Under the pieces are notes generated by a model. The model was not told the origin of the DNA and did not search any database. It saw only the letters and a list, made by a program, of their open reading frames with translations. From Rhynchopus euleeides (lineage: Eukaryota > Euglenozoa > Diplonemea > Diplonemida > Diplonemidae): 64,000 bases of DNA. The translations under genes and the position numbers were made by a program. Positions 25,498 through 64,000 of the stretch are shown in pieces; the first letter of the stretch is position 1, and each line of letters opens with the position of its first letter. The stretch spans positions 660,501-724,500 of the forward strand of contig OY723295.1 of the NCBI GenBank assembly GCA_963210315.1. Reading direction: 5' to 3'.

Positions 25498-25831
25498 GGG
25501 TCAAAGGGTGCGGGCTATCGTCCTGGAGCTGCTGCTTGGTGTTTGTCTCAATGTGGGATCACAGGGGCCCACCGAGAAGCGGTGTCCCCAACCACGCGCG
25601 GGTATTGGCGTGCCTGTGTAATGTACATTAATCCACGTAAACTGCCGAGGGGCACAGGGCGAACGTATGAGTCAGATCAACCCGGCGGGCCCGCTTTCAG
25701 CACGCCGGCCGGCCGGCATCGGTATGCGGGCTGCGGGCTGCGGTGTGCCGCGGCAAACAGGAGGAGGGGGAATTACGGAGTGCAGAGCCAGCGGGAGTAC
25801 ACTACACTGTGTTTTTTTAAGCTTTTTTTTA
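25498..25831. repeat. Relic of the array spacer, left part
   Basis: Matches the array spacer at 32728-33053 nearly base for base, including the palindrome TAATGTACATTA at 25619-25630. It ends at the T-run where the DNA element is inserted. Confidence 0.8.
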
Positions 25832-27513: not shown

Positions 27514-27518
27514 TTTTT

Positions 27519-27800
27519 AAGTTTTTTTTAGGGGGTAGCGGGGTGTGCGGCACATGGATCCGAAACGATTGTGTGCAGCGTCCCAGGCAAGGCGTGCAGT
27601 GTATGCAGGCAGCCCAGACACCGCGGATCCCGTGCCACACGCCGAAGGGTCTGCCGGCACGCTCCCAGCCCCCCGCCCCGTTGGCACGCCACAGCGGGCA
27701 TCCCGCAGAGCGCTAACCAGCGCATCAACTCAAACATTAGGAAGGCAAGCACAGGCGGAGACCAGGGGTATGCCCAGGCTCGCAGGTGCCCACAGCTTCT
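27519..27800. repeat. Relic of the array spacer, right part
   Basis: Continues the spacer match (33053-33335) on the other side of the inserted element, with a few substitutions (for example cacgctccc for gcgctccc). It diverges after gtgcccacagcttctgt. Confidence 0.75.
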
Positions 27801-28015
27801 GTCACTGCACAGACGTATGTAGTTGTGGGAAGAGGAGAACGGGAAGCGGGGGCTGGGGGGTGGGGACGCGGAATACGGAATCTGGGGGTGTGATGGGGTA
27901 TGGTGTACGGAATGTGAAATAAGGAATCTGGAAACACAAGCTCGCCTGTTAATGGAGGGCCCATCTTGTTCCGTTGTGTAGGTGTTGCCCCGCACACCCG
28001 TACGGGGAGGCCGCT
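27801..28015 (-). other. 3' flank of surface-protein copy 1, unlike the other copies
   Basis: No similarity seen to the 3' flank shared by copies 0 and 2-6. It goes together with the divergent C-terminal coding region of copy 1. Confidence 0.5.
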
Positions 28016-31000
28016 TTACACGCCAGCACCATCGACTGGCTCGTGCTTGGCTGCCTCGGGGACGTCGTTCTTCTTCCCGCACATCACAATGGCCACCACA
28101 ACAAACGCAACAAGGGCGAGGAATGCAATGGACACGCCGATGGCCGCACGCTCCCCGGCGCTCAGATCGTCATCACTCTCAGTCGACCTAGTCCCCGAGC
28201 TCCTGCATACATACTGCGACCCATCGAGCGTACGCGTCGTTGTGGATGTGCACGATATAGCCTGACACACGTTGTTCTGATCAAGCACAGTGCGCGTCGC
28301 GCTGTCGAGTTCGCAGGCCTTTCCATTGCCCATGTTGCCGCCTGATGCCCCACCCAGCGCATCCAGTGTGAGGGCATCGCGCCCTGTTGTGTTGAGCGTC
28401 GCGTATTTCGCGTTGTAGGATGAGTCCAGGGCCGCGTCCCCCAGGATGAACTTCACCATCTCCTGAGGGTTGCACCCCACAAGGGCGAACAGAGAGACAC
28501 CCGACCCAGGGATCACCAGGACGCCGTCCGCACCGCCTGACACAGTGCCGAGGATAAGGGCAAGGGTCTGTACGAAGTTCGCCTTCTCCGCATCTGTCAC
28601 ATCTGCCTCCGTGTTAGATGTGAAGTCGAGCCTTACAACCATATTCACCACGGACGCCGTCTTGGCGATGCACAGCTGCACGTACGGGTTCGGGTGTGCA
28701 TACTCGGCCGTCGTCACGCAGGTGCACGTGTTGCCGAGAATGGGGTCCACACTGCACGTCGCATTAGGGTCCATCCCGTCAAGCCGGCAATCCGCAGCGG
28801 TATGGCAGAAGCCGCTGACCGAAGTTTGCTTCTTCGCAATTGTGGTGACCTTCGTCGGGGAAGGGGTCGGCATCGTGCACTTCCCGTCGACGCACACCGT
28901 GTTCACCGTGTCGAACGTGCAGTCCCCGTCCACAAGGCAGGTCGCTGTCGCGTTCTCAGACTTCAGCACGCAGTCGCTACCGGCACCGGACAGCTTTGGC
29001 ATACGCACGTAGAAGGGGTCGCACTTCACGGCAGAGCACACCGTCGTCCCGCTCAGCTCCAGCTCGAACGCCGACGCTGCGTTCCCCAGTGTGCACGTCT
29101 TCAGAATTGCCAGCGTCGGGGCCGGGGTGGGGGGCGGGTATGTCTCCCCAGAGCCCAGCGGGGCCGGCGGCAGCGTCGCAGGCACCACCTCCACCTTTGT
29201 CACCAGGCTGGCGCCGAGCGTCTGCGAGGCAGCGGGGTTCGCCTTCACGGCAGCCGCAACAGCAGAGTTCACAGAGTCCGTGGCCACGCTCCCCACCTTG
29301 GAGCTGGGGACCTCCGCCACAGACAGGGCCCCGATGGACCCGCAGAAGAAGTCGATGGCTGTCGTCACCCCGGCGAGGTTGGTGTTCAGCACACCCAGCA
29401 GGAACACCTTCACATCACGCGGCACATCCCCGTTCTGGCACGACCCGACGGAGAAGTACAGGAACGACACCACCTCCTGCACCACCTCGTAGCAGCCCCA
29501 GTATGCAGCATCCCCACTGTCCAAGATCTGCGGGCCGTAACCGCTGGAGCACGTGCACTGGTGCGACGACTGAGTGCACACACCGGCGTTGTCCCCATTC
29601 TCCCTGCACACCGCATCGCTCGTGCACCAGACAGTCACAACCGGCGCAGCCCCCGGGGTCGCGGTCGTCGGGGCAGGGGTGGCCGGCACATTTGTGGGGG
29701 GCACCGGCACGAGCGTGCGCGGCGTGTACGTCGGCGGGACCGGGGTCGGCGGCACGGACGTGGGCGCGAGTGTCTTCCCAGCAGGCAGCGGGGTCGGTGG
29801 GGAAATTGTGTTGGGCGCCGGAGTGGGGGGTGACGGTGTCGGGGCGATCGTTGGGGGAGCAGGTGTTGCGGGCGCCGGAGTCGCAGGTGCGGGTGTGGCC
29901 GGTGCGAAGGTCTTGCCTGCAGGAAGAGGTGTGTCCGGCGCAGGCGTGGCCGGTGCAGGTGTCGCAGGCGCGAAGGTCTTGCCAGCCGGAAGAGGTGTGT
30001 CCGGCGCAGGCGTCGCCGGTGCGGGTGTCGCAGGTGCGGGTGTCGCAGGTGCGGGTGTCGCAGGCGCAGGCGTCGCCGGTGCGGGTGTCGCAGGCGCAGG
30101 CGTCGCCGGAGCCGGCGTCGCAGGTGCGGGTGTCGCCGGTGCAGGAGTGGCCGGTGCAGGAGTGGCAGGCGCGGGTGTGGCAGGTGCAGGCGTCGCCGGG
30201 GCCGCTGTGGCCGGTGCGAAGGTCTTCCCTGCCGGAAGAGGTGTGTCTGGCGCAGGTGTCGCCGGGGCGGGAGTTGCAGGTGCCAAGGTCTTCCCTGCCG
30301 GAAGAGGTGTGTCTGGCGCAGGCGTGGCCGGTGCGGGTGTTGCGGGTGCCGGCGTCGCAGGTGCAGGAGTCGCCGGAGCCGGTGTGGCCGGTGCGAAGGT
30401 TTTGCCTGCCGGAAGAGGTGTGGCTGGCACAGGCGTGGCCGGTGCGGGTGTTGCAGGCGCCGATGTCGGGGCGATAGTTGCGGGTGCCGGTGTCGCCGGG
30501 GCAGGCGTCGCAGGTGCAGGAGTTGTCGGTGCCGACGTTGCAGGCGCCGGCGTGGCCGGTGCGAAGGTTTTGCCTGCCGGAAGAGGTGTCGCCGGTGCAG
30601 ATGTAGCGGGGGCAGGTGTCGCAGGCGCCGGTGTCGGGGCAACAGTTGCAGGTGCAGGCGTCGCCGGTGCGAAGGTCTTCCCTGCCGGAAGAGGCGTCGC
30701 CGGTGCAGATGTTGCCGGTGCGGAAGTTGCGGGTGCTGATGTGGCAGGGGCGGGTGTCGCCGGTGCGGGAGTTGCAGGTGCCGGCGTGGCCGGTGCGAAA
30801 GTCTTCCCTGCCGGAAGAGGAGTCGCCGGTACCGGCGTGGCCGGTGCGGGTGTCGCAGGCGCCGGTGTCGGGGCGATAGTTGCAGGTGCGGGTGTCGCAG
30901 GTGCGGGTGTGGCAGGCGCAGACGTTGCCGGGGCCGGTGTCGCCGGGGCGAAGGTCTTGCCTGCCGGAAGAGGAGTCGCCGGTGCAGATGTAGCCGGTGC

Positions 31001-32596
31001 AGGTGTCGCAGGCGCCGGTGTGGGTGCGATAGTTGCGGGTGCAGGTGTAGCCGGTGCGAAGGTCTTTCCTGCGGGGAGCGGTGTGGCCGGCGCGGGCGTG
31101 GCTGGTGCCGGAGTTGCAGGTGCGGGAGTCGCAGGTACGGTAGTTGCAGGTGCGGGAGTCGCAGGTGCGGGGGTCGCAGGTGCGGTAGTTGCAGGTGCGG
31201 GAGTCGCCGGTGCAGGCGTCGCAGGCGCCGGTGTAGCAGGTGCAGGCGTTGCCGGGGCAGGTGTAGCAGGCGCAGGCGTCGCAGGTGCGGGTGTAGCAGG
31301 CGCCGGCGTTGCCGGGGCAGGGGTTGCCGGTGCGGGTGTCGGGGCGAGAGTTGCAGGTGCGGGTGTCGCCGGGGCGAAAGTCTTGCCTGCCGGAAGGGGC
31401 GTCGCCGGTGCCGACGTGGCCGGTGCGGGTGTTGCAGGCGCCGGTGTCGGTGCGATAGTTGCAGGTGCGGGTGTCGCAGGTGCGGGTGTGGCAGGCGCAG
31501 AGGTTGCCGGGGCCGGTGTCGCCGGGGCGAAGGTCTTCCCTGCCGGAAGAGGAGTCGCCGGTGCAGATGTAGCCGGTGCAGGTGTCGCAGGCGCCGGTGT
31601 GGGTGCGATAGTTGCGGGTGCAGGCGTCGCCGGTGCAGATGTCGCGGGCGCGGGTGTTGCAGGCGCAGGTGTAGCAGGCGCCGGCGTTGCCGGGGCAGGT
31701 GTAGCAGGCGCCGGCGTCGCAGGTGAGGGCGTCGCCGGTGCGGGTGTCGCAGGCGCCGGCGTCGCAGGCGCAGGGGTTGCCGGTGCGGGTGTCGGGGCGA
31801 GAGTTGCAGGTGCGGGTGTCGCCGGCGCGAAAGTCTTGCCTGCCGGAAGGGGGGTCGCCGGTGCAGATGTAGCCGGTGCGGGTGTTGCAGGCGCCGGTGT
31901 CGGTGCGATAGTTGCGGGTGCAGGTGTCGCAGGTGCGGGTGTGGCAGGCGCAGACGTTGCCGGGGCCGGTGTCGCCGGGGCGAAGGTCTTCCCTGCCGGA
32001 AGAGGAGTCGCCGGTGCAGATGTAGCCGGTGCAGGTGTAGCAGGCGCCGGTGTGGGTGCGATAGTTGCGGGTGCAGGCGTCGCCGGTGCAGGCGTTGCGG
32101 GTGCGGGTGTTGCAGGCGCAGGTGTGGCGGGTGCAGGCGTTGCAGGGGCAGACGTGGCGGGTGCGGGTGTCGCTGGGGCCGGCGTTGCAGGGGCAGGTGT
32201 CGCGGGTGCGGGTGTCGCGGGGGCAGGCGTTGCAGGCGCAGGGGTGGCAGGTGCAGGGGTGGCGGGTGCCGGTGTCGCCGGTGCAGGCGTGGCAGGTGCA
32301 GGTGTTGCCGGGGCGGGTGTCGCAGGGGCAGGGGTGGCAGGTGCAGGCGTAGCAGGTGCAGGCGTCGCCGGTGCAGGCGTACCAGGTGCAGGTGTTGCCG
32401 GGGCCGGTGTCGCAGGTGCAGGCGTGGCAGGTGCAGGCGTCGCGGGTGCCGGTGTCGCGGGTGCAGGCGTTGCGGGGGCAGGTGTCGGGGGCGCCGGTGT
32501 TGGCGGCGAAGGTGTTGGCGGCGCAGGTGTCGGGGGTGCGGTCCCGCAGACACATTGCACCAACAGCACCATGGCCAGCAACCGCGGTCCGTGCAT
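28016..32596 (-). CDS. Thr/Pro-rich type I surface protein, copy 1, mosaic (1526 residues)
   Basis: Same plan as the family: signal peptide MHGPRLLAMVLLVQCVCG, ~963-residue stalk (nt ~32542-29653), Cys-rich ectodomain, membrane helix (residues ~1484-1507) and tail ending KHEPVDGAGV. From the start down to about nt 28845 it is nearly the array sequence. Left of that, it is strongly diverged yet collinear: FCHTAADCRLDGMDPNATC replaces FCTTNEDCRLNGLDPASTC, and the helix reads SIAFLALVAFVVVAIVM. It also has its own text near the stalk end (TTATPGAAPVV, CTQSSHQC). Cysteine positions and the last residues are kept, so the divergent part is under constraint. The pattern suggests an older paralogue overwritten by gene conversion over its 5' three-quarters. 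Confidence 0.85.
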   Translation of the reverse strand: MHGPRLLAMVLLVQCVCGTAPPTPAPPTPSPPTPAPPTPAPATPAPATPAPATPAPATPAPATPAPATPAPGTPAPATPAPATPAPATPAPATPAPATPAPATPAPATPAPATPAPATPAPATPAPATPAPATPAPATPAPATPAPATSAPATPAPATPAPATPAPATPAPATPAPATIAPTPAPATPAPATSAPATPLPAGKTFAPATPAPATSAPATPAPATPAPATIAPTPAPATPAPATSAPATPLPAGKTFAPATPAPATLAPTPAPATPAPATPAPATPAPATPSPATPAPATPAPATPAPATPAPATPAPATSAPATPAPATIAPTPAPATPAPATSAPATPLPAGKTFAPATPAPATSAPATPAPATPAPATIAPTPAPATPAPATSAPATPLPAGKTFAPATPAPATLAPTPAPATPAPATPAPATPAPATPAPATPAPATPAPATPAPATPAPATPAPATTAPATPAPATPAPATTVPATPAPATPAPATPAPATPLPAGKTFAPATPAPATIAPTPAPATPAPATSAPATPLPAGKTFAPATPAPATSAPATPAPATPAPATIAPTPAPATPAPATPVPATPLPAGKTFAPATPAPATPAPATPAPATSAPATSAPATSAPATPLPAGKTFAPATPAPATVAPTPAPATPAPATSAPATPLPAGKTFAPATPAPATSAPTTPAPATPAPATPAPATIAPTSAPATPAPATPVPATPLPAGKTFAPATPAPATPAPATPAPATPAPATPAPDTPLPAGKTLAPATPAPATPAPDTPLPAGKTFAPATAAPATPAPATPAPATPAPATPAPATPAPATPAPATPAPATPAPATPAPATPAPATPAPATPAPATPAPDTPLPAGKTFAPATPAPATPAPDTPLPAGKTFAPATPAPATPAPATPAPPTIAPTPSPPTPAPNTISPPTPLPAGKTLAPTSVPPTPVPPTYTPRTLVPVPPTNVPATPAPTTATPGAAPVVTVWCTSDAVCRENGDNAGVCTQSSHQCTCSSGYGPQILDSGDAAYWGCYEVVQEVVSFLYFSVGSCQNGDVPRDVKVFLLGVLNTNLAGVTTAIDFFCGSIGALSVAEVPSSKVGSVATDSVNSAVAAAVKANPAASQTLGASLVTKVEVVPATLPPAPLGSGETYPPPTPAPTLAILKTCTLGNAASAFELELSGTTVCSAVKCDPFYVRMPKLSGAGSDCVLKSENATATCLVDGDCTFDTVNTVCVDGKCTMPTPSPTKVTTIAKKQTSVSGFCHTAADCRLDGMDPNATCSVDPILGNTCTCVTTAEYAHPNPYVQLCIAKTASVVNMVVRLDFTSNTEADVTDAEKANFVQTLALILGTVSGGADGVLVIPGSGVSLFALVGCNPQEMVKFILGDAALDSSYNAKYATLNTTGRDALTLDALGGASGGNMGNGKACELDSATRTVLDQNNVCQAISCTSTTTRTLDGSQYVCRSSGTRSTESDDDLSAGERAAIGVSIAFLALVAFVVVAIVMCGKKNDVPEAAKHEPVDGAGV
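29653..32542 (-). repeat. Stalk-coding repeat tract of copy 1
   Basis: 15-bp units coding APATP with about a dozen TPLPAGKTFAP/TLAP punctuation units. Differs from copy 2 by block gains and losses. Confidence 0.9.
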
Positions 32597-32601
32597 CTTG
32601 G

Positions 32602-32618
32602 CTGAACAGAAAGTGTAG
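32602..32618 (-). promoter_or_regulatory. Candidate splice acceptor of copy 1
   Basis: Minus strand ctacactttctgttcag, five-base leader ccaag, then ATG. Confidence 0.55.
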
Positions 32619-32839
32619 ACCTGGACCGTGGTGAGGTGATGATCGGGTGGCACAACGGCACATGAACCGTGACTCGCACTACCCGGGCAGAGGTGGAGCA
32701 GGACGTGATGGGGCGTGGGGGTCGGGGGGTGCGGGCTATCGTCCTGGAGCTGCTGCTTGATGTTTGTCTCAATGTGGGATCACAGGGGCCCACCGAGAAG
32801 CGGTGTCCCCAACCACGCGCGGGTATTGGCGTGCCTGTG

Positions 32840-32851
32840 TAATGTACATTA
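32840..32851. promoter_or_regulatory. Conserved palindrome TAATGTACATTA, 244 bp upstream of each array gene
   Basis: A perfect 12-bp palindrome at a fixed distance from the ATG of copies 1-5 (also 39747, 46693, 53639, 60570) and in the relic (25619). Could be a protein-binding site. Its conservation is uninformative on its own, because the whole spacer is homogenised. Confidence 0.3.
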
Positions 32852-34982
32852 ATCCACGTAAACTGCCGAGGGGCACAGGGCGAACGTATGAGTCAGATCA
32901 ACCCGGCGGGCCCGCTTTCAGCACGCCGGCCGGCCGGCATCGGTATGCGGGCTGCGGGCTGCGGTGTGCCGCGGCAAACAGGAGGAGGGGGAATTACGGA
33001 GTGCAGAGCCAGCGGGAGTACACTACACTGTGTTTTTTTAAAGCTTTTTTTTAAGTTTTTTTTAGGGGGTAGCGGGGTGTGCGGCACATGGATCCGAAAC
33101 GATTGTGTGCAGCGTCCCAGGCAAGGCGTGCAGTGTATGCAGGCAGCCCAGACACCGCGGATCCCGTGCCACACGCCGAAGGGTCTGCCGGCGCGCTCCC
33201 AGCCCCCCGCCCCGTTGGCACGCCACAGCGGGCATCCCGCAGAGCGCTAACCAGCGCATCAACTCAAACATTAGGAAGGCAAGCACAGGCGGAGACGAGG
33301 GGTATGCCCAGGCTCGCAGGTGCCCACAACTTCTGTACTGATCTCTCGCGAAATAGGCCATATAGGTTATGTGATCATTGGTGTGATACTATGTGACTTG
33401 AAGTGACTCACAAGCCGTTTTCACTGGCTCCAGTCACGTCACAGTAAGTTTGGTGGACTGTGCAGAGGCCAAGGCAACGGGGTACTCCCCCGAGTGCCCT
33501 TCTCAGCTGACCCACCGGGCAACCAGGTAGGCCACGATTACGCCAAACACCAAGAGGTGGGGCGGTGCATTGTTATGTTGGGGATGTGTCTTGGCTGCGG
33601 CTTGATGTGGGTTTTCCACCCCGATGGGTACCTGCGTACCACTACCGATAGGTAGTGTCGCAGCCCAGATTTCTGTGTATCTGTTCTGGATCTTGCGGCC
33701 CACGCACCCCATTTCATCAGATCGGGGAGTGGTGGAATTAGTGTTCCAACATAGCAAACATAGTGAGCCTAGTGAACCCCAAGAGAAGGGGAGAAACGAA
33801 AGTTGTTGTTCTTCAAACGCAGCACACCCCACATCACGTGTGAAATGTTTGCAAGGGTCCGCACAGTGGGGACCCTCACACCCAGTCACGGCAGTTACGG
33901 CTTGTCAGTCAGTGAGGGGAAGTAGGCCGCCCCTCACGTTAAAACACTCAGTCACACCTGGTAGCGAAGGCCCCCAAGTGAAAAGTTTCACAATTTGCTT
34001 CGCCGAACTGTCAAAACCCAATTTCAGGCAGGTATTCGTTTGCTACCACCACACTGCCCAACGGGCAGAGATAGTTTGAACGAATTTTGAACGATTTTTG
34101 GCCGTGCTAGTCGCGCCCCCCGGTGAGGGGGGGTCGCTGTTTCGTGTTCTCCTTGCCGCACGGAGGCATTGCCTTACGTCGCCTCTTCCTCTTTTCCTTT
34201 ATTTTGGCGGGTTAGTCTGACACAGAGGGCGGGACCGTGCTGATATGCACGGTGACGACTCTCCCTTTTTCGTTGTGCCCGCCCCTTGGTGACAAGGGTG
34301 AGTTTTGTGTGACTACCAAATAAACCAATTGCGGGTTTTCGGATTGTTGTTGTGTGGTAACCATAATATTATGGTAGGGAGAGTTGTGGCAGCCTTCCAT
34401 ACAACTATCTTACTACAAGCACCGGACTTGCAAGACCAGATCCTGAGCGATCGGTCAGGTGTGGGTGCTGCTCACCGAAGGAGAGAAGAAGGGAAGGCGA
34501 TGGAACAGCAGCAGATGCATGGGAGTGTGAAATCAGAGAGAGGAAAATGGGGTGCATTTGGAAGCTGCTAGTGTGCAGTGCCAGGGTATCCACCAAGAGC
34601 GCAGTCTTGCTGTGGTTCTACTTGTAGGATTGAGGAAATGGCACTGCACGCCAGCAAAACGGAGGGTTTGTTCACTAAGGAGATTACTGTTGGAGTATGT
34701 CGCTTTGATATTGTAACGTTCCGGGCCCGTTATTCAAATGGGAGGGTGCCCAATCATCTGACCTCAGTCTCGGGAGAACGACCCATGCGCCTCCAGAAAT
34801 GGAAATGCCAGTCAGCCCGGACAGACAACAACAAGGACTTACACCAAACAGTAGGGATTCGGTTCGCAGAGAAGAATGGAGGTGGAAAAAAATTAAATGT
34901 TCGCTAAGAAAAGCAAAGTGATGGGGGGTGGGTGGAGAGTGAGACAAGACGTGTGATGTACACGAGAGGAAACAGGATGACC

Positions 34983-37900
34983 TTAGACACCGGTACCGTC
35001 CACAGGCTCGTGCTTGCCCTCGGGGACGCCGCCGCTGTCCTTCTTGAAGCAGAGGAAGAAGGCAATTCCCACAATGACGAAGAAACCGAGAACACTGCCC
35101 ACCACAATGGCAGCGATCTCGCCATCCGTCAGGTCGTCGTCACTGTCCAGGGTGCGGGTGGAGACGACCTTGCAGCGGTAGTTGTCGTTGACCTGGACAC
35201 GCTCGGCAGTGCTGACACACGTGATAGCCTGGCACACAGACTTGCTGTCCAGCTTCGTGCTGGTGGCATAGTCGAGATCGCACTCCTTCCCGTTGGACAC
35301 GGACCCACCTGTCGGGCCATCGACAGCAAGAACACTGGCAGCACGCCCCGAAGTCCTCTTGTTTGCGTTGTACAGCTGCACAAGGGTCGTCTTGCCCAGG
35401 ATCAGCTGCGCCAACTTGGATGACTCAGCTGCAACGACGGCAAAGACGTCGAACCCCGTCACATTAGCTTCCCCAAGAACCACGAGGTCCCCGACCACGG
35501 ATCCGAGGCCCGCACCAAGCGTGGCGGCGATAGCTGTCGCGTCAGCGCTGGTGTACTGAGACAGGGTGTTCGCCCCGAAGATGAGCCCCACGGTCACAGT
35601 AACAGTGGAGGTGCCGTTGGGGGCGCACAGCTTCACCGACTCGTCCGGGTGCGAGTACTCGGCAGAGACACATTCGCACCAGTTGCCATTCACGGTATCG
35701 ACAGTGCATGTCGAGGCGGGGTCCAGCCCGTTGAGCCGGCAGTCCTCGTTTGTGGTGCAGAAGCCCGCGAACGACGTCTCGACCTTCCTGATGACGGTGA
35801 CCTTCGTCGGGGAAGGGGTCGGCATCGTGCACGCCCCGTCGACGCACACCGTGTTCACCGTGTCGAACGTGCAGTCCCCGTTCACAAGGCAAGTCGCCGT
35901 CACGTTCTCAGACTTCAGCACGCAGTCGCTACCGGCACCGGACAGCTTGGCCACACGCACGTAGAAGGGGTCGCACTTCACGGCAGAGCACACCGTCGTC
36001 CCGCTCAGCTCCAGCTCGAACGCCGACGCTGCGTTCCCCAGTGTGCACGTCTTCAGAATTGCCAGCGTCGGGGCCGGGGTGGGGGGCGGGTATGTCTCCC
36101 CAGAGCCCAGCGGGGCCGGCGGCAGCGTCGCAGGCACCACCTCCACCTTTGTCACCAGGCTGGCGCCGAGCGTCTGCGAGGCAGCGGGGTTCGTCTTCAG
36201 CGCGTCCGCAACAGCAGTGGTCACCGAGTCCGTGGCCACGCTCCCCACCTTGGAGCTGGGGACCTCCGCCACAGACAGGGCCCCGATGGACCCGCAGAAG
36301 AAGTCGATGGCTGTCGTCACCCCGGCGAGGTTGGTGTTCAGCACACCCAGCAGGAACACCTTCACATCACGCGGCACATCCCCGTTCTGGCACGACCCGA
36401 CGGAGAAGTACAGGAACGACACCACCTCCTGCACCACCTCGTAGCAGCCCCAGTATGCAGCATCCCCACTGTCCAGGATCTGCGGGCCGTAACCGCTGGA
36501 GCACGTGCACTGGCTGGACGCCGGCGTGCACACACCGGCGCTGTCCCCGTTCTCCCTGCACACCGCATCGCTCGTGCACCAGACAGTCAGAACCGGCGCA
36601 GCCCCCGGTGCCCCAGTCGTCGGGGCAGGGGTGGCCGGCACATTTGTGGGGGGCACCGGCACAAGCGTGCGCGGCGTGTGCGTCGGCGGGACCGGGGTCG
36701 GCGGCACGGACGTGGGCGCGAGTGTCTTCCCAGCAGGCAGCGGGGTCGGTGGGGAAATTGTGTTGGGCGCCGGAGTGGGGGGTGACGGTGTCGGGGCGAT
36801 CGTTGGGGGAGCAGGTGTTGCGGGCGCCGGAGTCGCAGGTGCGGGTGTGGCCGGTGCGAAGGTCTTGCCTGCAGGAAGAGGTGTGTCCGGCGCAGGCGTG
36901 GCCGGTGCAGGGGTCGCAGGGGCGAAGGTCTTGCCAGCCGGAAGAGGTGTGTCCGGCGCAGGCGTCGCCGGTGCGGGTGTCGCAGGTGCGGGTGTCGCAG
37001 GTGCGGGTGTCGCAGGCGCAGGCGTCGCCGGTGCGGGTGTCGCAGGCGCAGGCGTCGCCGGAGCCGGCGTCGCAGGTGCGGGTGTCGCCGGTGCAGGAGT
37101 GGCCGGTGCAGGAGTGGCAGGCGCGGGTGTGGCAGGTGCAGGCGTCGCCGGGGCCGGTGTGGCCGGTGCGAAGGTCTTCCCTGCCGGAAGAGGTGTGTCT
37201 GGCGCAGGCGTGGCCGGTGCGGGTGTTGCGGGTGCCGGCGTCGCAGGTGCAGGAGTCGCCGGAGCCGGTGTGGCCGGTGCGAAGGTTTTGCCTGCCGGAA
37301 GAGGTGTGGCTGGCACAGGCGTGGCCGGTGCGGGTGTTGCAGGCGCCGATGTCGGGGCGATAGTTGCGGGTGCCGGTGTCGCCGGGGCAGGCGTCGCAGG
37401 TGCAGGAGTTGTCGGTGCCGACGTTGCAGGCGCCGGCGTGGCCGGTGCGAAGGTTTTGCCTGCCGGAAGAGGTGTCGCCGGTGCAGATGTAGCGGGGGCA
37501 GGTGTCGCAGGCGCCGGTGTCGGGGCAACAGTTGCAGGTGCAGGCGTCGCCGGTGCGAAGGTCTTCCCTGCCGGAAGAGGCGTCGCCGGTGCAGATGTTG
37601 CCGGTGCGGAAGTTGCGGGTGCTGATGTGGCAGGGGCGGGTGTCGCCGGTGCGGGAGTTGCAGGTGCCGGCGTGGCCGGTGCGAAAGTCTTCCCTGCCGG
37701 AAGAGGAGTCGCCGGTACCGGCGTGGCCGGTGCGGGTGTCGCAGGCGCCGGTGTCGGGGCGATAGTTGCAGGTGCGGGTGTCGCAGGTGCGGGTGTGGCA
37801 GGCGCAGACGTTGCCGGGGCCGGTGTCGCCGGGGCGAAGGTCTTGCCTGCCGGAAGAGGAGTCGCCGGTGCAGATGTAGCCGGTGCAGGTGTCGCAGGCG

Positions 37901-53395: not shown

Positions 53396-55781
53396 CTTGG
53401 CTGAACAGAAAGTGTAGACCTGGACCGTGGTGAGGTGATGATCGGGTGGCACAACGGCACATGAACCGTGACTCGCACTACCCGGGCAGAGGTGGAGCAG
53501 GACGTGATGGGGCGTGGGGGTCGGGGGGTGCGGGCTATCGTCCTGGAGCTGCTGCTTGATGTTTGTCTCAATGTGGGATCACAGGGGCCCACCGAGAAGC
53601 GGTGTCCCCAACCACGCGCGGGTATTGGCGTGCCTGTGTAATGTACATTAATCCACGTAAACTGCCGAGGGGCACAGGGCGAACGTATGAGTCAGATCAA
53701 CCCGGCGGGCCCGCTTTCAGCACGCCGGCCGGCCGGCATCGGTATGCGGGCTGCGGGCTGCGGTGTGCCGCGGCAAACAGGAGGAGGGGGAATTACGGAG
53801 TGCAGAGCCAGCGGGAGTACACTACACTGTGTTTTTTTAAAGCTTTTTTTTAAGTTTTTTTTAGGGGGTAGCGGGGTGTGCGGCACATGGATCCGAAACG
53901 ATTGTGTGCAGCGTCCCAGGCAAGGCGTGCAGTGTATGCAGGCAGCCCAGACACCGCGGATCCCGTGCCACACGCCGAAGGGTCTGCCGGCGCGCTCCCA
54001 GCCCCCCGCCCCGTTGGCACGCCACAGCGGGCATCCCGCAGAGCGCTAACCAGCGCATCAACTCAAACATTAGGAAGGCAAGCACAGGCGGAGACGAGGG
54101 GTATGCCCAGGCTCGCAGGTGCCCACAACTTCTGTACTGATCTCTCGCGAAATAGGCCATATAGGTTATGTGATCATTGGTGTGATACTATGTGACTTGA
54201 AGTGACTCACAAGCCGTTTTCACTGGCTCCAGTCACGTCACAGTAAGTTTGGTGGACTGTGCAGAGGCCAAGGCAACGGGGTACTCCCCCGAGTGCCCTT
54301 CTCAGCTGACCCACCGGGCAACCAGGTAGGCCACGATTACGCCAAACACCAAGAGGTGGGGCGGTGCATTGTTATGTTGGGGATGTGTCTTGGCTGCGGC
54401 TTGATGTGGGTTTTCCACCCCGATGGGTACCTGCGTACCACTACCGATAGGTAGTGTCGCAGCCCAGATTTCTGTGTATCTGTTCTGGATCTTGCGGCCC
54501 ACGCACCCCATTTCATCAGATCGGGGAGTGGTGGAATTAGTGTTCCAACATAGCAAACATAGTGAGCCTAGTGAACCCCAAGAGAAGGGGAGAAACGAAA
54601 GTTGTTGTTCTTCAAACGCAGCACACCCCACATCACGTGTGAAATGTTTGCAAGGGTCCGCACAGTGGGGACCCTCACACCCAGTCACGGCAGTTACGGC
54701 TTGTCAGTCAGTGAGGGGAAGTAGGCCGCCCCTCACGTTAAAACACTCAGTCACACCTGGTAGCGAAGGCCCCCAAGTGAAAAGTTTCACAATTTGCTTC
54801 GCCGAACTGTCAAAACCCAATTTCAGGCAGGTATTCGTTTGCTACCACCACACTGCCCAACGGGCAGAGATAGTTTGAACGAATTTTGAACGATTTTTGG
54901 CCGTGCTAGTCGCGCCCCCCGGTGAGGGGGGGTCGCTGTTTCGTGTTCTCCTTGCCGCACGGAGGCATTGCCTTACGTCGCCTCTTCCTCTTTTCCTTTA
55001 TTTTGGCGGGTTAGTCTGACACAGAGGGCGGGACCGTGCTGATATGCACGGTGACGACTCTCCCTTTTTCGTTGTGCCCGCCCCTTGGTGACAAGGGTGA
55101 GTTTTGTGTGACTACCAAATAAACCAATTGCGGGTTTTCGGATTGTTGTTGTGTGGTAACCATAATATTATGGTAGGGAGAGTTGTGGCAGCCTTCCATA
55201 CAACTATCTTACTACAAGCACCGGACTTGCAAGACCAGATCCTGAGCGATCGGTCAGGTGTGGGTGCTGCTCACCGAAGGAGAGAAGAAGGGAAGGCGAT
55301 GGAACAGCAGCAGATGCATGGGAGTGTGAAATCAGAGAGAGGAAAATGGGGTGCATTTGGAAGCTGCTAGTGTGCAGTGCCAGGGTATCCACCAAGAGCG
55401 CAGTCTTGCTGTGGTTCTACTTGTAGGATTGAGGAAATGGCACTGCACGCCAGCAAAACGGAGGGTTTGTTCACTAAGGAGATTACTGTTGGAGTATGTC
55501 GCTTTGATATTGTAACGTTCCGGGCCCGTTATTCAAATGGGAGGGTGCCCAATCATCTGACCTCAGTCTCGGGAGAACGACCCATGCGCCTCCAGAAATG
55601 GAAATGCCAGTCAGCCCGGACAGACAACAACAAGGACTTACACCAAACAGTAGGGATTCGGTTCGCAGAGAAGAATGGAGGTGGAAAAAAATTAAATGTT
55701 CGCTAAGAAAAGCAAAGTGATGGGGGGTGGGTGGAGAGTGAGACAAGACGTGTGATGTACACGAGAGGAAACAGGATGACC
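53396..55781. repeat. Array spacer 4 (2386 bp)
   Basis: Same as spacer 1 in length and content. Confidence 0.85.
53401..53417 (-). promoter_or_regulatory. Candidate splice acceptor of copy 4
   Basis: Same tract and leader as copy 1. Confidence 0.55.
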
Positions 55782-58700
55782 TTAGACACCGGTACCGTCC
55801 ACAGGCTCGTGCTTGCCCTCGGGGACGCCGCCGCTGTCCTTCTTGAAGCAGAGGAAGAAGGCAATTCCCACAATGACGAAGAAACCGAGAACACTGCCCA
55901 CCACAATGGCAGCGATCTCGCCATCCGTCAGGTCGTCGTCACTGTCCAGGGTGCGGGTGGAGACGACCTTGCAGCGGTAGTTGTCGTTGACCTGGACACG
56001 CTCGGCAGTGCTGACACACGTGATAGCCTGGCACACAGACTTGCTGTCCAGCTTCGTGCTGGTGGCATAGTCGAGATCGCACTCCTTCCCGTTGGACACG
56101 GACCCACCTGTCGGGCCATCGACAGCAAGAACACTGGCAGCACGCCCCGAAGTCCTCTTGTTTGCGTTGTACAGCTGCACAAGGGTCGTCTTGCCCAGGA
56201 TCAGCTGCGCCAACTTGGATGACTCAGCTGCAACGACGGCAAAGACGTCGAACCCCGTCACATTAGCTTCCCCAAGAACCACGAGGTCCCCGACCACGGA
56301 TCCGAGGCCCGCACCAAGCGTGGCGGCGATAGCTGTCGCGTCAGCGCTGGTGTACTGAGACAGGGTGTTCGCCCCGAAGATGAGCCCCACGGTCACAGTA
56401 ACAGTGGAGGTGCCGTTGGGGGCGCACAGCTTCACCGACTCGTCCGGGTGCGAGTACTCGGCAGAGACACATTCGCACCAGTTGCCATTCACGGTATCGA
56501 CAGTGCATGTCGAGGCGGGGTCCAGCCCGTTGAGCCGGCAGTCCTCGTTTGTGGTGCAGAAGCCCGCGAACGACGTCTCGACCTTCCTGATGACGGTGAC
56601 CTTCGTCGGGGAAGGGGTCGGCATCGTGCACGCCCCGTCGACGCACACCGTGTTCACCGTGTCGAACGTGCAGTCCCCGTTCACAAGGCAAGTCGCCGTC
56701 ACGTTCTCAGACTTCAGCACGCAGTCGCTACCGGCACCGGACAGCTTGGCCACACGCACGTAGAAGGGGTCGCACTTCACGGCAGAGCACACCGTCGTCC
56801 CGCTCAGCTCCAGCTCGAACGCCGACGCTGCGTTCCCCAGTGTGCACGTCTTCAGAATTGCCAGCGTCGGGGCCGGGGTGGGGGGCGGGTATGTCTCCCC
56901 AGAGCCCAGCGGGGCCGGCGGCAGCGTCGCAGGCACCACCTCCACCTTTGTCACCAGGCTGGCGCCGAGCGTCTGCGAGGCAGCGGGGTTCGCCTTCACG
57001 GCAGCCGCAACAGCAGAGTTCACAGAGTCCGTGGCCACGCTCCCCACCTTGGAGCTGGGGACCTCCGCCACAGACAGGGCCCCGATGGACCCGCAGAAGA
57101 AGTCGATGGCTGTCGTCACCCCGGCGAGGTTGGTGTTCAGCACACCCAGCAGGAACACCTTCACATCACGCGGCACATCCCCGTTCTGGCACGACCCGAC
57201 GGAGAAGTACAGGAACGACACCACCTCCTGCACCACCTCGTAGCAGCCCCAGTATGCAGCATCCCCACTGTCCAGGATCTGCGGGCCGTAACCGCTGGAG
57301 CACGTGCACTGGCTGGACGCCGGCGTGCACACACCGGCGCTGTCCCCGTTCTCCCTGCACACCGCATCGCTCGTGCACCAGACAGTCAGAACCGGCGCAG
57401 CCCCCGGTGCCCCAGTCGTCGGGGCAGGGGTGGCCGGCACATTTGTGGGGGGCACCGGCACAAGCGTGCGCGGCGTGTGCGTCGGCGGGACCGGGGTCGG
57501 CGGCACGGACGTGGGCGCGAGTGTCTTCCCAGCAGGCAGCGGGGTCGGTGGGGAAATTGTGTTGGGCGCCGGAGTGGGGGGTGACGGTGTCGGGGCGATC
57601 GTTGGGGGAGCAGGTGTTGCGGGCGCCGGAGTCGCAGGTGCGGGTGTGGCCGGTGCGAAGGTCTTGCCTGCAGGAAGAGGTGTGTCCGGCGCAGGCGTGG
57701 CCGGTGCAGGGGTCGCAGGGGCGAAGGTCTTGCCAGCCGGAAGAGGTGTGTCCGGCGCAGGCGTCGCCGGTGCGGGTGTCGCAGGTGCGGGTGTCGCAGG
57801 TGCGGGTGTCGCAGGCGCAGGCGTCGCCGGTGCGGGTGTCGCAGGCGCAGGCGTCGCCGGAGCCGGCGTCGCAGGTGCGGGTGTCGCCGGTGCAGGAGTG
57901 GCCGGTGCAGGAGTGGCAGGCGCGGGTGTGGCAGGTGCAGGCGTCGCCGGGGCCGGTGTGGCCGGTGCGAAGGTCTTCCCTGCCGGAAGAGGTGTGTCTG
58001 GCGCAGGCGTGGCCGGTGCGGGTGTTGCGGGTGCCGGCGTCGCAGGTGCAGGAGTCGCCGGAGCCGGTGTGGCCGGTGCGAAGGTTTTGCCTGCCGGAAG
58101 AGGTGTGGCTGGCACAGGCGTGGCCGGTGCGGGTGTTGCAGGCGCCGATGTCGGGGCGATAGTTGCGGGTGCCGGTGTCGCCGGGGCAGGCGTCGCAGGT
58201 GCAGGAGTTGTCGGTGCCGACGTTGCAGGCGCCGGCGTGGCCGGTGCGAAGGTTTTGCCTGCCGGAAGAGGTGTCGCCGGTGCAGATGTAGCGGGGGCAG
58301 GTGTCGCAGGCGCCGGTGTCGGGGCAACAGTTGCAGGTGCAGGCGTCGCCGGTGCGAAGGTCTTCCCTGCCGGAAGAGGCGTCGCCGGTGCAGATGTTGC
58401 CGGTGCGGAAGTTGCGGGTGCTGATGTGGCAGGGGCGGGTGTCGCCGGTGCGGGAGTTGCAGGTGCCGGCGTGGCCGGTGCGAAAGTCTTCCCTGCCGGA
58501 AGAGGAGTCGCCGGTACCGGCGTGGCCGGTGCGGGTGTCGCAGGCGCCGGTGTCGGGGCGATAGTTGCAGGTGCGGGTGTCGCAGGTGCGGGTGTGGCAG
58601 GCGCAGACGTTGCCGGGGCCGGTGTCGCCGGGGCGAAGGTCTTGCCTGCCGGAAGAGGAGTCGCCGGTGCAGATGTAGCCGGTGCAGGTGTCGCAGGCGC

Positions 58701-60326
58701 CGGTGTGGGTGCGATAGTTGCGGGTGCAGGTGTAGCCGGTGCGAAGGTCTTTCCTGCGGGGAGCGGTGTGGCCGGCGCGGGCGTGGCTGGTGCCGGAGTT
58801 GCAGGTGCGGGAGTCGCAGGTACGGTAGTTGCAGGTGCGGGAGTCGCAGGTGCGGGGGTCGCAGGTGCGGTAGTTGCAGGTGCGGGAGTCGCAGGTGCGG
58901 GGGTCGCAGGTGCGGTAGTTGCAGGTGCGGGAGTCGCCGGTGCAGGCGTCGCAGGCGCCGGTGTAGCAGGTGCAGGCGTTGCCGGGGCAGGTGTAGCAGG
59001 CGCAGGCGTCGCAGGTGCGGGTGTAGCAGGCGCCGGCGTTGCCGGGGCAGGGGTTGCCGGTGCGGGTGTCGGGGCGAGAGTTGCAGGTGCGGGTGTCGCC
59101 GGGGCGAAAGTCTTGCCTGCCGGAAGGGGCGTCGCCGGTGCCGACGTGGCCGGTGCGGGTGTTGCAGGCGCCGGTGTCGGTGCGATAGTTGCAGGTGCGG
59201 GTGTCGCAGGTGCGGGTGTGGCAGGCGCAGAGGTTGCCGGGGCCGGTGTCGCCGGGGCGAAGGTCTTCCCTGCCGGAAGAGGAGTCGCCGGTGCAGATGT
59301 AGCCGGTGCAGGTGTCGCAGGCGCCGGTGTGGGTGCGATAGTTGCGGGTGCAGGCGTCGCCGGTGCAGATGTCGCGGGCGCGGGTGTTGCAGGCGCAGGT
59401 GTAGCAGGCGCCGGCGTTGCCGGGGCAGGTGTAGCAGGCGCCGGCGTCGCAGGTGAGGGCGTCGCCGGTGCGGGTGTCGCAGGCGCCGGCGTCGCAGGCG
59501 CAGGGGTTGCCGGTGCGGGTGTCGGGGCGAGAGTTGCAGGTGCGGGTGTCGCCGGGGCGAAAGTCTTGCCTGCCGGAAGGGGGGTCGCCGGTGCAGATGT
59601 AGCCGGTGCGGGTGTTGCAGGCGCCGGTGTCGGTGCGATAGTTGCGGGTGCAGGTGTCGCAGGTGCGGGTGTGGCAGGCGCAGACGTTGCCGGGGCCGGT
59701 GTCGCCGGGGCGAAGGTCTTCCCTGCCGGAAGAGGAGTCGCCGGTGCAGATGTAGCCGGTGCAGGTGTAGCAGGCGCCGGTGTGGGTGCGATAGTTGCGG
59801 GTGCAGGCGTCGCCGGTGCAGGCGTTGCGGGTGCGGGTGTTGCAGGCGCAGGTGTGGCGGGTGCAGGCGTTGCAGGGGCAGACGTGGCGGGTGCGGGTGT
59901 CGCTGGGGCCGGCGTTGCAGGGGCAGGTGTCGCGGGTGCGGGTGTCGCGGGGGCAGGCGTTGCAGGCGCAGGGGTGGCAGGTGCAGGGGTGGCGGGTGCC
60001 GGTGTCGCCGGTGCAGGCGTGGCAGGTGCAGGTGTTGCCGGGGCGGGTGTCGCAGGGGCAGGGGTGGCAGGTGCAGGCGTAGCAGGTGCAGGCGTCGCCG
60101 GTGCAGGCGTACCAGGTGCAGGTGTTGCCGGGGCCGGTGTCGCAGGTGCAGGCGTGGCAGGTGCAGGCGTCGCGGGTGCCGGTGTCGCGGGTGCAGGCGT
60201 TGCGGGGGCAGGTGTCGGGGGCGCCGGTGTTGGCGGCGAAGGTGTTGGCGGCGCAGGTGTCGGGGGTGCGGTCCCGCAGACACATTGCACCAACAGCACC
60301 ATGGCCAGCAACCGCGGTCCGTGCAT
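55782..60326 (-). CDS. Thr/Pro-rich type I surface protein, array copy 5 (1514 residues)
   Basis: As copies 3 and 4 but one five-residue APATP unit shorter at the start of the stalk (shared with copy 1), with at least one silent base change in the stalk (near 59560, gggg where copy 4 has ggcg). VNSAVAAAVKA ectodomain; helix and tail intact. Confidence 0.9.
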   Translation of the reverse strand: MHGPRLLAMVLLVQCVCGTAPPTPAPPTPSPPTPAPPTPAPATPAPATPAPATPAPATPAPATPAPATPAPGTPAPATPAPATPAPATPAPATPAPATPAPATPAPATPAPATPAPATPAPATPAPATPAPATPAPATPAPATPAPATSAPATPAPATPAPATPAPATPAPATPAPATIAPTPAPATPAPATSAPATPLPAGKTFAPATPAPATSAPATPAPATPAPATIAPTPAPATPAPATSAPATPLPAGKTFAPATPAPATLAPTPAPATPAPATPAPATPAPATPSPATPAPATPAPATPAPATPAPATPAPATSAPATPAPATIAPTPAPATPAPATSAPATPLPAGKTFAPATPAPATSAPATPAPATPAPATIAPTPAPATPAPATSAPATPLPAGKTFAPATPAPATLAPTPAPATPAPATPAPATPAPATPAPATPAPATPAPATPAPATPAPATPAPATTAPATPAPATPAPATTAPATPAPATPAPATTVPATPAPATPAPATPAPATPLPAGKTFAPATPAPATIAPTPAPATPAPATSAPATPLPAGKTFAPATPAPATSAPATPAPATPAPATIAPTPAPATPAPATPVPATPLPAGKTFAPATPAPATPAPATPAPATSAPATSAPATSAPATPLPAGKTFAPATPAPATVAPTPAPATPAPATSAPATPLPAGKTFAPATPAPATSAPTTPAPATPAPATPAPATIAPTSAPATPAPATPVPATPLPAGKTFAPATPAPATPAPATPAPATPAPATPAPDTPLPAGKTFAPATPAPATPAPATPAPATPAPATPAPATPAPATPAPATPAPATPAPATPAPATPAPATPAPATPAPATPAPDTPLPAGKTFAPATPAPATPAPDTPLPAGKTFAPATPAPATPAPATPAPPTIAPTPSPPTPAPNTISPPTPLPAGKTLAPTSVPPTPVPPTHTPRTLVPVPPTNVPATPAPTTGAPGAAPVLTVWCTSDAVCRENGDSAGVCTPASSQCTCSSGYGPQILDSGDAAYWGCYEVVQEVVSFLYFSVGSCQNGDVPRDVKVFLLGVLNTNLAGVTTAIDFFCGSIGALSVAEVPSSKVGSVATDSVNSAVAAAVKANPAASQTLGASLVTKVEVVPATLPPAPLGSGETYPPPTPAPTLAILKTCTLGNAASAFELELSGTTVCSAVKCDPFYVRVAKLSGAGSDCVLKSENVTATCLVNGDCTFDTVNTVCVDGACTMPTPSPTKVTVIRKVETSFAGFCTTNEDCRLNGLDPASTCTVDTVNGNWCECVSAEYSHPDESVKLCAPNGTSTVTVTVGLIFGANTLSQYTSADATAIAATLGAGLGSVVGDLVVLGEANVTGFDVFAVVAAESSKLAQLILGKTTLVQLYNANKRTSGRAASVLAVDGPTGGSVSNGKECDLDYATSTKLDSKSVCQAITCVSTAERVQVNDNYRCKVVSTRTLDSDDDLTDGEIAAIVVGSVLGFFVIVGIAFFLCFKKDSGGVPEGKHEPVDGTGV
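57410..60272 (-). repeat. Stalk-coding repeat tract of copy 5
   Basis: 15 bp shorter than copies 3 and 4, by loss of one unit near the N-terminal end. Confidence 0.9.
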
Positions 60327-62712
60327 CTTGGCTGAACAGAAAGTGTAGACCTGGACCGTGGTGAGGTGATGATCGGGTGGCACAACGGCACATGAACCGT
60401 GACTCGCACTACCCGGGCAGAGGTGGAGCAGGACGTGATGGGGCGTGGGGGTCGGGGGGTGCGGGCTATCGTCCTGGAGCTGCTGCTTGATGTTTGTCTC
60501 AATGTGGGATCACAGGGGCCCACCGAGAAGCGGTGTCCCCAACCACGCGCGGGTATTGGCGTGCCTGTGTAATGTACATTAATCCACGTAAACTGCCGAG
60601 GGGCACAGGGCGAACGTATGAGTCAGATCAACCCGGCGGGCCCGCTTTCAGCACGCCGGCCGGCCGGCATCGGTATGCGGGCTGCGGGCTGCGGTGTGCC
60701 GCGGCAAACAGGAGGAGGGGGAATTACGGAGTGCAGAGCCAGCGGGAGTACACTACACTGTGTTTTTTTAAAGCTTTTTTTTAAGTTTTTTTTAGGGGGT
60801 AGCGGGGTGTGCGGCACATGGATCCGAAACGATTGTGTGCAGCGTCCCAGGCAAGGCGTGCAGTGTATGCAGGCAGCCCAGACACCGCGGATCCCGTGCC
60901 ACACGCCGAAGGGTCTGCCGGCGCGCTCCCAGCCCCCCGCCCCGTTGGCACGCCACAGCGGGCATCCCGCAGAGCGCTAACCAGCGCATCAACTCAAACA
61001 TTAGGAAGGCAAGCACAGGCGGAGACGAGGGGTATGCCCAGGCTCGCAGGTGCCCACAACTTCTGTACTGATCTCTCGCGAAATAGGCCATATAGGTTAT
61101 GTGATCATTGGTGTGATACTATGTGACTTGAAGTGACTCACAAGCCGTTTTCACTGGCTCCAGTCACGTCACAGTAAGTTTGGTGGACTGTGCAGAGGCC
61201 AAGGCAACGGGGTACTCCCCCGAGTGCCCTTCTCAGCTGACCCACCGGGCAACCAGGTAGGCCACGATTACGCCAAACACCAAGAGGTGGGGCGGTGCAT
61301 TGTTATGTTGGGGATGTGTCTTGGCTGCGGCTTGATGTGGGTTTTCCACCCCGATGGGTACCTGCGTACCACTACCGATAGGTAGTGTCGCAGCCCAGAT
61401 TTCTGTGTATCTGTTCTGGATCTTGCGGCCCACGCACCCCATTTCATCAGATCGGGGAGTGGTGGAATTAGTGTTCCAACATAGCAAACATAGTGAGCCT
61501 AGTGAACCCCAAGAGAAGGGGAGAAACGAAAGTTGTTGTTCTTCAAACGCAGCACACCCCACATCACGTGTGAAATGTTTGCAAGGGTCCGCACAGTGGG
61601 GACCCTCACACCCAGTCACGGCAGTTACGGCTTGTCAGTCAGTGAGGGGAAGTAGGCCGCCCCTCACGTTAAAACACTCAGTCACACCTGGTAGCGAAGG
61701 CCCCCAAGTGAAAAGTTTCACAATTTGCTTCGCCGAACTGTCAAAACCCAATTTCAGGCAGGTATTCGTTTGCTACCACCACACTGCCCAACGGGCAGAG
61801 ATAGTTTGAACGAATTTTGAACGATTTTTGGCCGTGCTAGTCGCGCCCCCCGGTGAGGGGGGGTCGCTGTTTCGTGTTCTCCTTGCCGCACGGAGGCATT
61901 GCCTTACGTCGCCTCTTCCTCTTTTCCTTTATTTTGGCGGGTTAGTCTGACACAGAGGGCGGGACCGTGCTGATATGCACGGTGACGACTCTCCCTTTTT
62001 CGTTGTGCCCGCCCCTTGGTGACAAGGGTGAGTTTTGTGTGACTACCAAATAAACCAATTGCGGGTTTTCGGATTGTTGTTGTGTGGTAACCATAATATT
62101 ATGGTAGGGAGAGTTGTGGCAGCCTTCCATACAACTATCTTACTACAAGCACCGGACTTGCAAGACCAGATCCTGAGCGATCGGTCAGGTGTGGGTGCTG
62201 CTCACCGAAGGAGAGAAGAAGGGAAGGCGATGGAACAGCAGCAGATGCATGGGAGTGTGAAATCAGAGAGAGGAAAATGGGGTGCATTTGGAAGCTGCTA
62301 GTGTGCAGTGCCAGGGTATCCACCAAGAGCGCAGTCTTGCTGTGGTTCTACTTGTAGGATTGAGGAAATGGCACTGCACGCCAGCAAAACGGAGGGTTTG
62401 TTCACTAAGGAGATTACTGTTGGAGTATGTCGCTTTGATATTGTAACGTTCCGGGCCCGTTATTCAAATGGGAGGGTGCCCAATCATCTGACCTCAGTCT
62501 CGGGAGAACGACCCATGCGCCTCCAGAAATGGAAATGCCAGTCAGCCCGGACAGACAACAACAAGGACTTACACCAAACAGTAGGGATTCGGTTCGCAGA
62601 GAAGAATGGAGGTGGAAAAAAATTAAATGTTCGCTAAGAAAAGCAAAGTGATGGGGGGTGGGTGGAGAGTGAGACAAGACGTGTGATGTACACGAGAGGA
62701 AACAGGATGACC
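60327..62712. repeat. Array spacer 5 (2386 bp)
   Basis: Same as spacer 1 in length and content. Confidence 0.85.
60332..60348 (-). promoter_or_regulatory. Candidate splice acceptor of copy 5
   Basis: Same tract and leader as copy 1. Confidence 0.55.
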
Positions 62713-64000
62713 TTAGACACCGGTACCGTCCACAGGCTCGTGCTTGCCCTCGGGGACGCCGCCGCTGTCCTTCTTGAAGCAGAGGAAGAAGGCAATTCCC
62801 ACAATGACGAAGAAACCGAGAACACTGCCCACCACAATGGCAGCGATCTCGCCATCCGTCAGGTCGTCGTCACTGTCCAGGGTGCGGGTGGAGACGACCT
62901 TGCAGCGGTAGTTGTCGTTGACCTGGACACGCTCGGCAGTGCTGACACACGTGATAGCCTGGCACACAGACTTGCTGTCCAGCTTCGTGCTGGTGGCATA
63001 GTCGAGATCGCACTCCTTCCCGTTGGACACGGACCCACCTGTCGGGCCATCGACAGCAAGAACACTGGCAGCACGCCCCGAAGTCCTCTTGTTTGCGTTG
63101 TACAGCTGCACAAGGGTCGTCTTGCCCAGGATCAGCTGCGCCAACTTGGATGACTCAGCTGCAACGACGGCAAAGACGTCGAACCCCGTCACATTAGCTT
63201 CCCCAAGAACCACGAGGTCCCCGACCACGGATCCGAGGCCCGCACCAAGCGTGGCGGCGATAGCTGTCGCGTCAGCGCTGGTGTACTGAGACAGGGTGTT
63301 CGCCCCGAAGATGAGCCCCACGGTCACAGTAACAGTGGAGGTGCCGTTGGGGGCGCACAGCTTCACCGACTCGTCCGGGTGCGAGTACTCGGCAGAGACA
63401 CATTCGCACCAGTTGCCATTCACGGTATCGACAGTGCATGTCGAGGCGGGGTCCAGCCCGTTGAGCCGGCAGTCCTCGTTTGTGGTGCAGAAGCCCGCGA
63501 ACGACGTCTCGACCTTCCTGATGACGGTGACCTTCGTCGGGGAAGGGGTCGGCATCGTGCACGCCCCGTCGACGCACACCGTGTTCACCGTGTCGAACGT
63601 GCAGTCCCCGTTCACAAGGCAAGTCGCCGTCACGTTCTCAGACTTCAGCACGCAGTCGCTACCGGCACCGGACAGCTTGGCCACACGCACGTAGAAGGGG
63701 TCGCACTTCACGGCAGAGCACACCGTCGTCCCGCTCAGCTCCAGCTCGAACGCCGACGCTGCGTTCCCCAGTGTGCACGTCTTCAGAATTGCCAGCGTCG
63801 GGGCCGGGGTGGGGGGCGGGTATGTCTCCCCAGAGCCCAGCGGGGCCGGCGGCAGCGTCGCAGGCACCACCTCCACCTTTGTCACCAGGCTGGCGCCGAG
63901 CGTCTGCGAGGCAGCGGGGTTCGCCTTCACGGCAGCCGCAACAGCAGAGTTCACAGAGTCCGTGGCCACGCTCCCCACCTTGGAGCTGGGGACCTCCGCC
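62713..64000 (-). CDS. Thr/Pro-rich type I surface protein, array copy 6, C-terminal part only
   Basis: The last ~429 codons are visible: most of the Cys-rich ectodomain (VNSAVAAAVKA version), acidic patch, membrane helix and KHEPVDGTGV tail. The signal peptide and stalk lie beyond the right edge. The frame is open to the last base, so the partial state is due to the window. Confidence 0.9.
   Translation of the reverse strand, partial: AEVPSSKVGSVATDSVNSAVAAAVKANPAASQTLGASLVTKVEVVPATLPPAPLGSGETYPPPTPAPTLAILKTCTLGNAASAFELELSGTTVCSAVKCDPFYVRVAKLSGAGSDCVLKSENVTATCLVNGDCTFDTVNTVCVDGACTMPTPSPTKVTVIRKVETSFAGFCTTNEDCRLNGLDPASTCTVDTVNGNWCECVSAEYSHPDESVKLCAPNGTSTVTVTVGLIFGANTLSQYTSADATAIAATLGAGLGSVVGDLVVLGEANVTGFDVFAVVAAESSKLAQLILGKTTLVQLYNANKRTSGRAASVLAVDGPTGGSVSNGKECDLDYATSTKLDSKSVCQAITCVSTAERVQVNDNYRCKVVSTRTLDSDDDLTDGEIAAIVVGSVLGFFVIVGIAFFLCFKKDSGGVPEGKHEPVDGTGV

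Follow-up and report, generated by a model that had tools for sequence, protein, structure and literature searches.

A tandem array of near-identical genes predicted to encode a mucin-like transmembrane protein

In the window, the whole 64,000-bp stretch of DNA analysed here, the minus strand carried six consecutive head-to-tail open reading frames (ORFs) between position 28016 and the window end, five of them complete and one cut. Probably, these ORFs belong to a tandem array of at least six units that arose by recent amplification and encodes a mucin-like stalk protein of the type I transmembrane kind; the array would have been amplified for dosage and shaped by unequal crossing-over and gene conversion. 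Unequal crossing-over of misaligned units would have multiplied one ~6.95-kb unit and would keep the units uniform. Short gene conversions would carry variants among the array members and a separate copy, c0. In the copy at the array edge, c1, an exchange boundary would lie inside the gene, so that c1 would retain the C-terminal half and the 3′ flank of an older paralogue.

In Trypanosoma brucei, the setting of dosage through copy number is explained by polycistronic transcription (PMC1855330). Under polycistronic transcription without individual promoters, output would rise with the number of copies, and the array would therefore most likely serve high expression, here of a coat or adhesion stalk that would be extended and O-glycosylated. 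That one coat protein is made at high dosage, as proposed in the first-pass annotation, may reasonably be supposed by analogy with trypanosomatid biology (PMC1855330).

Layout of the array and identity of its units

The coordinates of c1 to c5 run from stop codon to ATG, and all copies are on the minus strand. The copy at the 3′ edge of the array, c1 (28016–32596; 1526 aa), is followed by c2 (34983–39503; 1506 aa), c3 (41890–46449; 1519 aa), c4 (48836–53395; 1519 aa), which served as the reference copy, c5 (55782–60326; 1514 aa) and c6 (62713–64000). The last of these ends at the window edge, and the 1288 bp present all match c4. The proteins encoded from the ATG thus range from 1506 to 1526 aa.

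In all five gaps, an ATG and the stop codon that follows were 2386 bp apart, the sum of 2329 bp lying outside the longest open frame and 57 bp more up to the ATG. The stop-to-stop periods were 6967, 6907, 6946, 6946 and 6931 bp. The five 2329-bp spacers (32654–34982 between c1 and c2, and then 39561–41889, 46507–48835, 53453–55781 and 60384–62712) had the same sequence, with no mismatches and no gaps in any of the ten pairwise comparisons. Judging from these five unchanged spacers, divergence per copy since the common origin was less than ~0.03%.

Pairwise comparison of the units gave 100% identity between c3 and c4 across the complete 6946-bp unit. Differences of c5 from c3/c4 were limited to the loss of one 15-bp repeat unit, as in c1, and one private SNP, and those of c2 to the loss of 39 bp from the stalk and a single group of 8 SNPs close together. 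With more than three same-strand copies that are near-identical in coding and spacer DNA, the locus resembles in this respect the concertedly evolving tandem gene arrays of euglenozoans. The six consecutive same-strand copies, the constant 2386-bp spacing, the sameness of copies 3 and 4 and the uniformity of the non-coding DNA, all noted in the first-pass annotation, were borne out. Its description of the coding sequence as near-identical held for c2 to c6. It missed that c1, owing to a different 3′ sequence, had no more than 92% identity over its whole length, and it also missed the seventh copy, c0, and the spacer remnants downstream of c1.

The central ~1.1 kb of the spacer (54140–55256 and the equivalents in each spacer) matched nothing around c0 or on the downstream side of c1. 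It would have been either gained by the array or lost at both of those places. When transposon-marking inverted repeats were sought in this part, only one 15-nt pair was found, away from the ends. Rfam and tRNA scans of the whole window gave no matches.

Genes and spacers were equally uniform, and a very recent expansion would explain their identity without selection. Neutral amplification, by crossing-over in a repeat-rich genome and with no selection for dosage, would therefore produce much the same picture, and euglenozoan genomes can be repeat-rich (PMC10161547). However, the frames were open in all copies and the protein frame was under strong constraint (see below), an observation that bears on the protein and not on selection for copy number. 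We consider this explanation unlikely.

The perfect identity of the five spacers and of the adjacent c3 and c4 is also what a duplicated or over-polished unit would give. The assembly would then have inflated or smoothed the copy number, with fewer real units and with one consensus spread over the spacers by polishing. The adjacent, identical c3 and c4 could represent a single unit that the assembly duplicated, and a frameshifting 203-bp loss in a neighbouring VWA repeat gene suggests that repeats here may be imperfectly assembled. On the other side, c1, c2, c3/c4 and c5 differed from one another in their combinations of variants (the 15-bp and 39-bp indels, the 8-SNP tract, the SNP and the 3′ end), so that, by their sequences, at least four distinct units must exist. 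An assembly effect of this kind seems distinctly unlikely as an explanation of the array.

Sequence exchange, the edge copy and the separate copy

Three features point to unequal exchange and gene conversion, the processes assumed in the preferred reading of a recently amplified dosage array: a tract common to c2 and c0, the composition of c1, and a 15-bp deletion common to c1 and c5, which are not neighbours.

The separate copy c0, the seventh in the window (16497–20426, minus strand; 1309 aa), had a shorter stalk that differed from the array at silent sites, whereas its 3′ third matched the array, with 97% identity in the C-terminal part. In c2, 8 SNPs within 32 bp (36194–36225, minus strand) all had the c0 state, and they lay within a 1.19-kb stretch (35663–36848) free of differences between c0 and c2. 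The two copies were identical across 1186 aligned bases, with all 24 remaining differences located further 3′ (~3e-11 under a uniform model). The tract and the identical stretch indicate exchange between copies, with either copy as the possible donor.

The edge copy c1 carries the signal peptide and stalk of the array type, followed by a divergent C-terminal half (ectodomain module 2, transmembrane segment and tail). Its first ~2.4 kb matched the array except for indels and 5 substitutions, its middle was 92–100% identical, and its last ~850 bp (approximately 28016–28860, minus strand) had ~57% identity to the other copies. The divergence starts near the PTPSPT linker, which separates two ectodomain modules. 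When the 3′ flank of c1 was searched for homology to the array spacer, the result was no better than with shuffled sequence. As judged from these comparisons, c1 is a chimera in which a 5′ part of the array type is joined to the 3′ part of an old paralogue. Active homogenisation, as first proposed for this locus, thus agrees with the identity of spacers and units and with the conversion tracts but is not array-wide, as copy 1 retains its ancient, different 3′ end.

A reservoir for antigenic or adhesin variation, to which c0 and c1 would donate variant C-termini, would fit the different C-terminal module behind the same stalk in c1 and the conversion tracts connecting c2 and c0, but it is highly improbable given that the members of the array hardly differ, the reverse of what a diversity archive would show, that the divergent end of c1 shows purifying selection (dN/dS ~0.34), and that a single variant type is present.

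Sequences related to the array were also found beyond it. The 525 bp on the 3′ side of c0 (15972–16496, minus strand), probably a 3′ UTR, were 99% identical to the array 3′ flank (spacer positions 1805–2329). Downstream of c1, a remnant of array-type spacer (25497–27807) covered spacer positions 65–687 with 98.5% identity and was split by a 1.68-kb insertion at 25832–27513. The similarity of c0 to the array and the presence of this remnant suggest that c0 probably once lay next to c1 and was moved away from it by inserted DNA.

The 1.68-kb insertion had CGGCCG palindromes near its ends and was set in AT-rich spacer DNA. An inverted relative was present at 22500–24405, with 94–96% identity over two blocks. 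The insertion looks like a non-coding mobile element.

Reading frame and predicted protein

Long ORFs were open in other frames and strands across the repeats, for example one of 1014 aa at 29574–32618 on the plus strand. The 15-bp repeats keep several frames open on both strands, and ORF length is therefore no evidence for a gene. When the stalks of c0 and c4 were compared, the differences at codon positions 1, 2 and 3 numbered 27, 8 and 281, and every gap in the alignment was a multiple of three. The alignment of the stalk repeats is uncertain unit by unit, an uncertainty that does not produce a third-position bias. For the C-terminal half, c1 and c4 gave a dN of 0.49 and a dS of 1.44 (dN/dS ~0.34), indicating purifying selection on the divergent end of c1. 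The codon-position test and dN/dS settled the question in favour of a real minus-strand frame, with the protein sequence evidently under selection.

In c4, the predicted protein consists of a signal peptide (residues ~1–18), a stalk (~19–986), a Cys-rich ectodomain (~987–1470), a transmembrane segment (~1471–1502) and a tail. The signal peptide was called by eye from the hydrophobic N-terminus, MHGPRLLAMVLLVQCVCG. Across the copies, the stalk of ~955–970 residues contains ~110 APATP motifs, 14–15 spacers of the PLPAGK type and ~216–217 Thr/Ser, and is composed of 35% P, 33% A and 20% T. The ~535 residues that follow include 27–28 Cys, one hydrophobic segment and a tail ending in KHEPVDG(T/A)GV. 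With 217 Thr/Ser, dense O-glycosylation of the stalk is possible. If stretched out in full, its ~968 residues could span roughly 300 nm.

A signal peptide, PTS-rich repeats, a single transmembrane helix and a short tail together make up the architecture of a transmembrane mucin. Both this type I design and the codon-position test support the earlier description of a mucin-like surface protein, with the surface location being predicted. We also considered a GPI-anchored trypanosomatid mucin and rejected it, as a charged, conserved tail rather than a GPI signal follows the hydrophobic segment. The KHEPVDG.GV tail is kept in c1 despite nearly saturated silent sites, an observation that favours a real cytoplasmic tail over a GPI anchor.

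The octapeptide PLPAGKTF occurred ~14 times in the stalk (for example, within 50438–53341 on the minus strand), which is otherwise nearly free of Lys and Phe, and it was conserved in c0. It is a possible cleavage, cross-link or binding site.

A Pfam search returned nothing for the array protein or for the intergenic ORFs, and a PDB sequence search with the array protein returned one chance-level match and no relative. Relatives were found in none of the viral contigs, prokaryotic genomes and phages searched, as expected of a eukaryotic gene. The structure model of the full C-terminal part had a mean pLDDT of 35. For the second folded module alone, the model (mean pLDDT 72) had a ferredoxin-like beta-alpha-beta-beta-alpha-beta topology, with weak structure matches (best Z 7.3). 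SEA domains also have a ferredoxin-like topology; there was no SEA match in Pfam and no SEA chain among the structure matches listed for this model. An EGF-like Cys spacing occurred twice (weak internal match, E 0.005), with no Pfam EGF match. Since Pfam and PDB gave no relative and the resemblance to SEA is a weak one of topology only, we use "mucin-like" as an architectural label.

Genomic context and comparison with known systems

In every copy including c0, CTACACTTTCTGTTCAG was found just before CC(A/G)AGATG. This arrangement is a plausible trans-splice acceptor, with TTCTGTTCAG^CCAAGATG as the putative spliced-leader addition site. A spliced-leader-like pattern of the trypanosome type, which may not be that of diplonemids, was sought and was absent. 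The same-strand gene order, the polypyrimidine-AG immediately ahead of the ATG and the wide intergenic regions are compatible with a euglenozoan; the analysis detected no taxon-specific marker. In the diplonemid Diplonema papillatum, genes are clustered on the same strand, spacers are large and repeat-rich, and 3′ UTRs are long (PMC10161547); the layout of the window would fit a genome organised in this way.

Some tandem arrays of T. brucei are invariant in both genes and spacers. In others, described as having "mixed dynamics", a single copy at the edge stands out by its C-terminus and its remodelled flanks, for example in Tb105a (PMC1855330). The present array resembles them in its single strand, its identical coding and intergenic DNA and its distinctive edge copy, with ectopic and allelic conversion being the processes there (PMC1855330). 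It differs in its unrelated product, in its long unit with an internal repeat tract, and in having invariant units and a mixed edge copy at one locus. The array is thus a clear new example of a gene-array type already known, and its mechanism has already been described in trypanosomes. If the preferred reading is true, the locus would offer a clean example from nature of how an array arises and is homogenised, as it combines invariant units, an edge unit with an intragenic exchange boundary, a dispersed copy that trades short tracts with the array, and remnants of the spacer. A likely major surface protein would also be identified for a group with a poorly known coat.

Among surface proteins, bodonin of Bodo saltans is likewise a multi-copy glycoprotein with a repetitive ectodomain in a free-living euglenozoan. 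Bodonin, however, averages seven transmembrane helices and is diverse and rich in Ser, Thr and Asn, whereas the array protein has one transmembrane helix and Pro/Ala/Thr repeats (PMC4728078). Trypanosomatid mucins, PPG and PSA are also repetitive Thr/Ser/Pro-rich surface proteins in multigene families. In the array protein, a transmembrane helix and a charged, conserved tail replace the GPI signal, and its copies are near-invariant rather than a diverse family. Animal mucins of the MUC1/MUC17 type have in common with it a signal peptide, a long Pro/Thr-rich repeat region that varies in length, Cys-rich modules close to the membrane, a single transmembrane helix and a short tail. It differs from them in that Pfam matched neither SEA nor EGF, in that one module gave just a weak ferredoxin-like prediction, and in that no homology was detectable. 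Hydroxyproline-rich and arabinogalactan proteins of plants and algae contain AP and TP dipeptide repeats, as does the array stalk.

A more speculative proposal, which we put forward tentatively, is that a free-living euglenozoan, possibly a diplonemid, would build a thick coat or a prey-capture fringe from one protein encoded by a dosage array. Its repeat stalk, Cys-rich modules, transmembrane helix and tail would have converged on the design of animal transmembrane mucins, and the edge copy would swap the membrane-proximal module behind the same stalk.

A large repeated gene on the same strand as the array (2283–10359, minus strand) contained at least four VWA modules of ~1.7 kb (starting at 9291, 7596, 5895 and 4397). 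These were followed by a TPAP-rich linker and then by EGF-like DEC..GQ.C.DP..DW.C.C repeats running past the window start. Its product is probably another secreted or surface protein. Around position 5628, one VWA module was without ~203 bp relative to its sister modules, by which the frame was shifted and the upstream ORF ended. This loss may reflect either pseudogene formation or decay, or a local collapse of the assembly.
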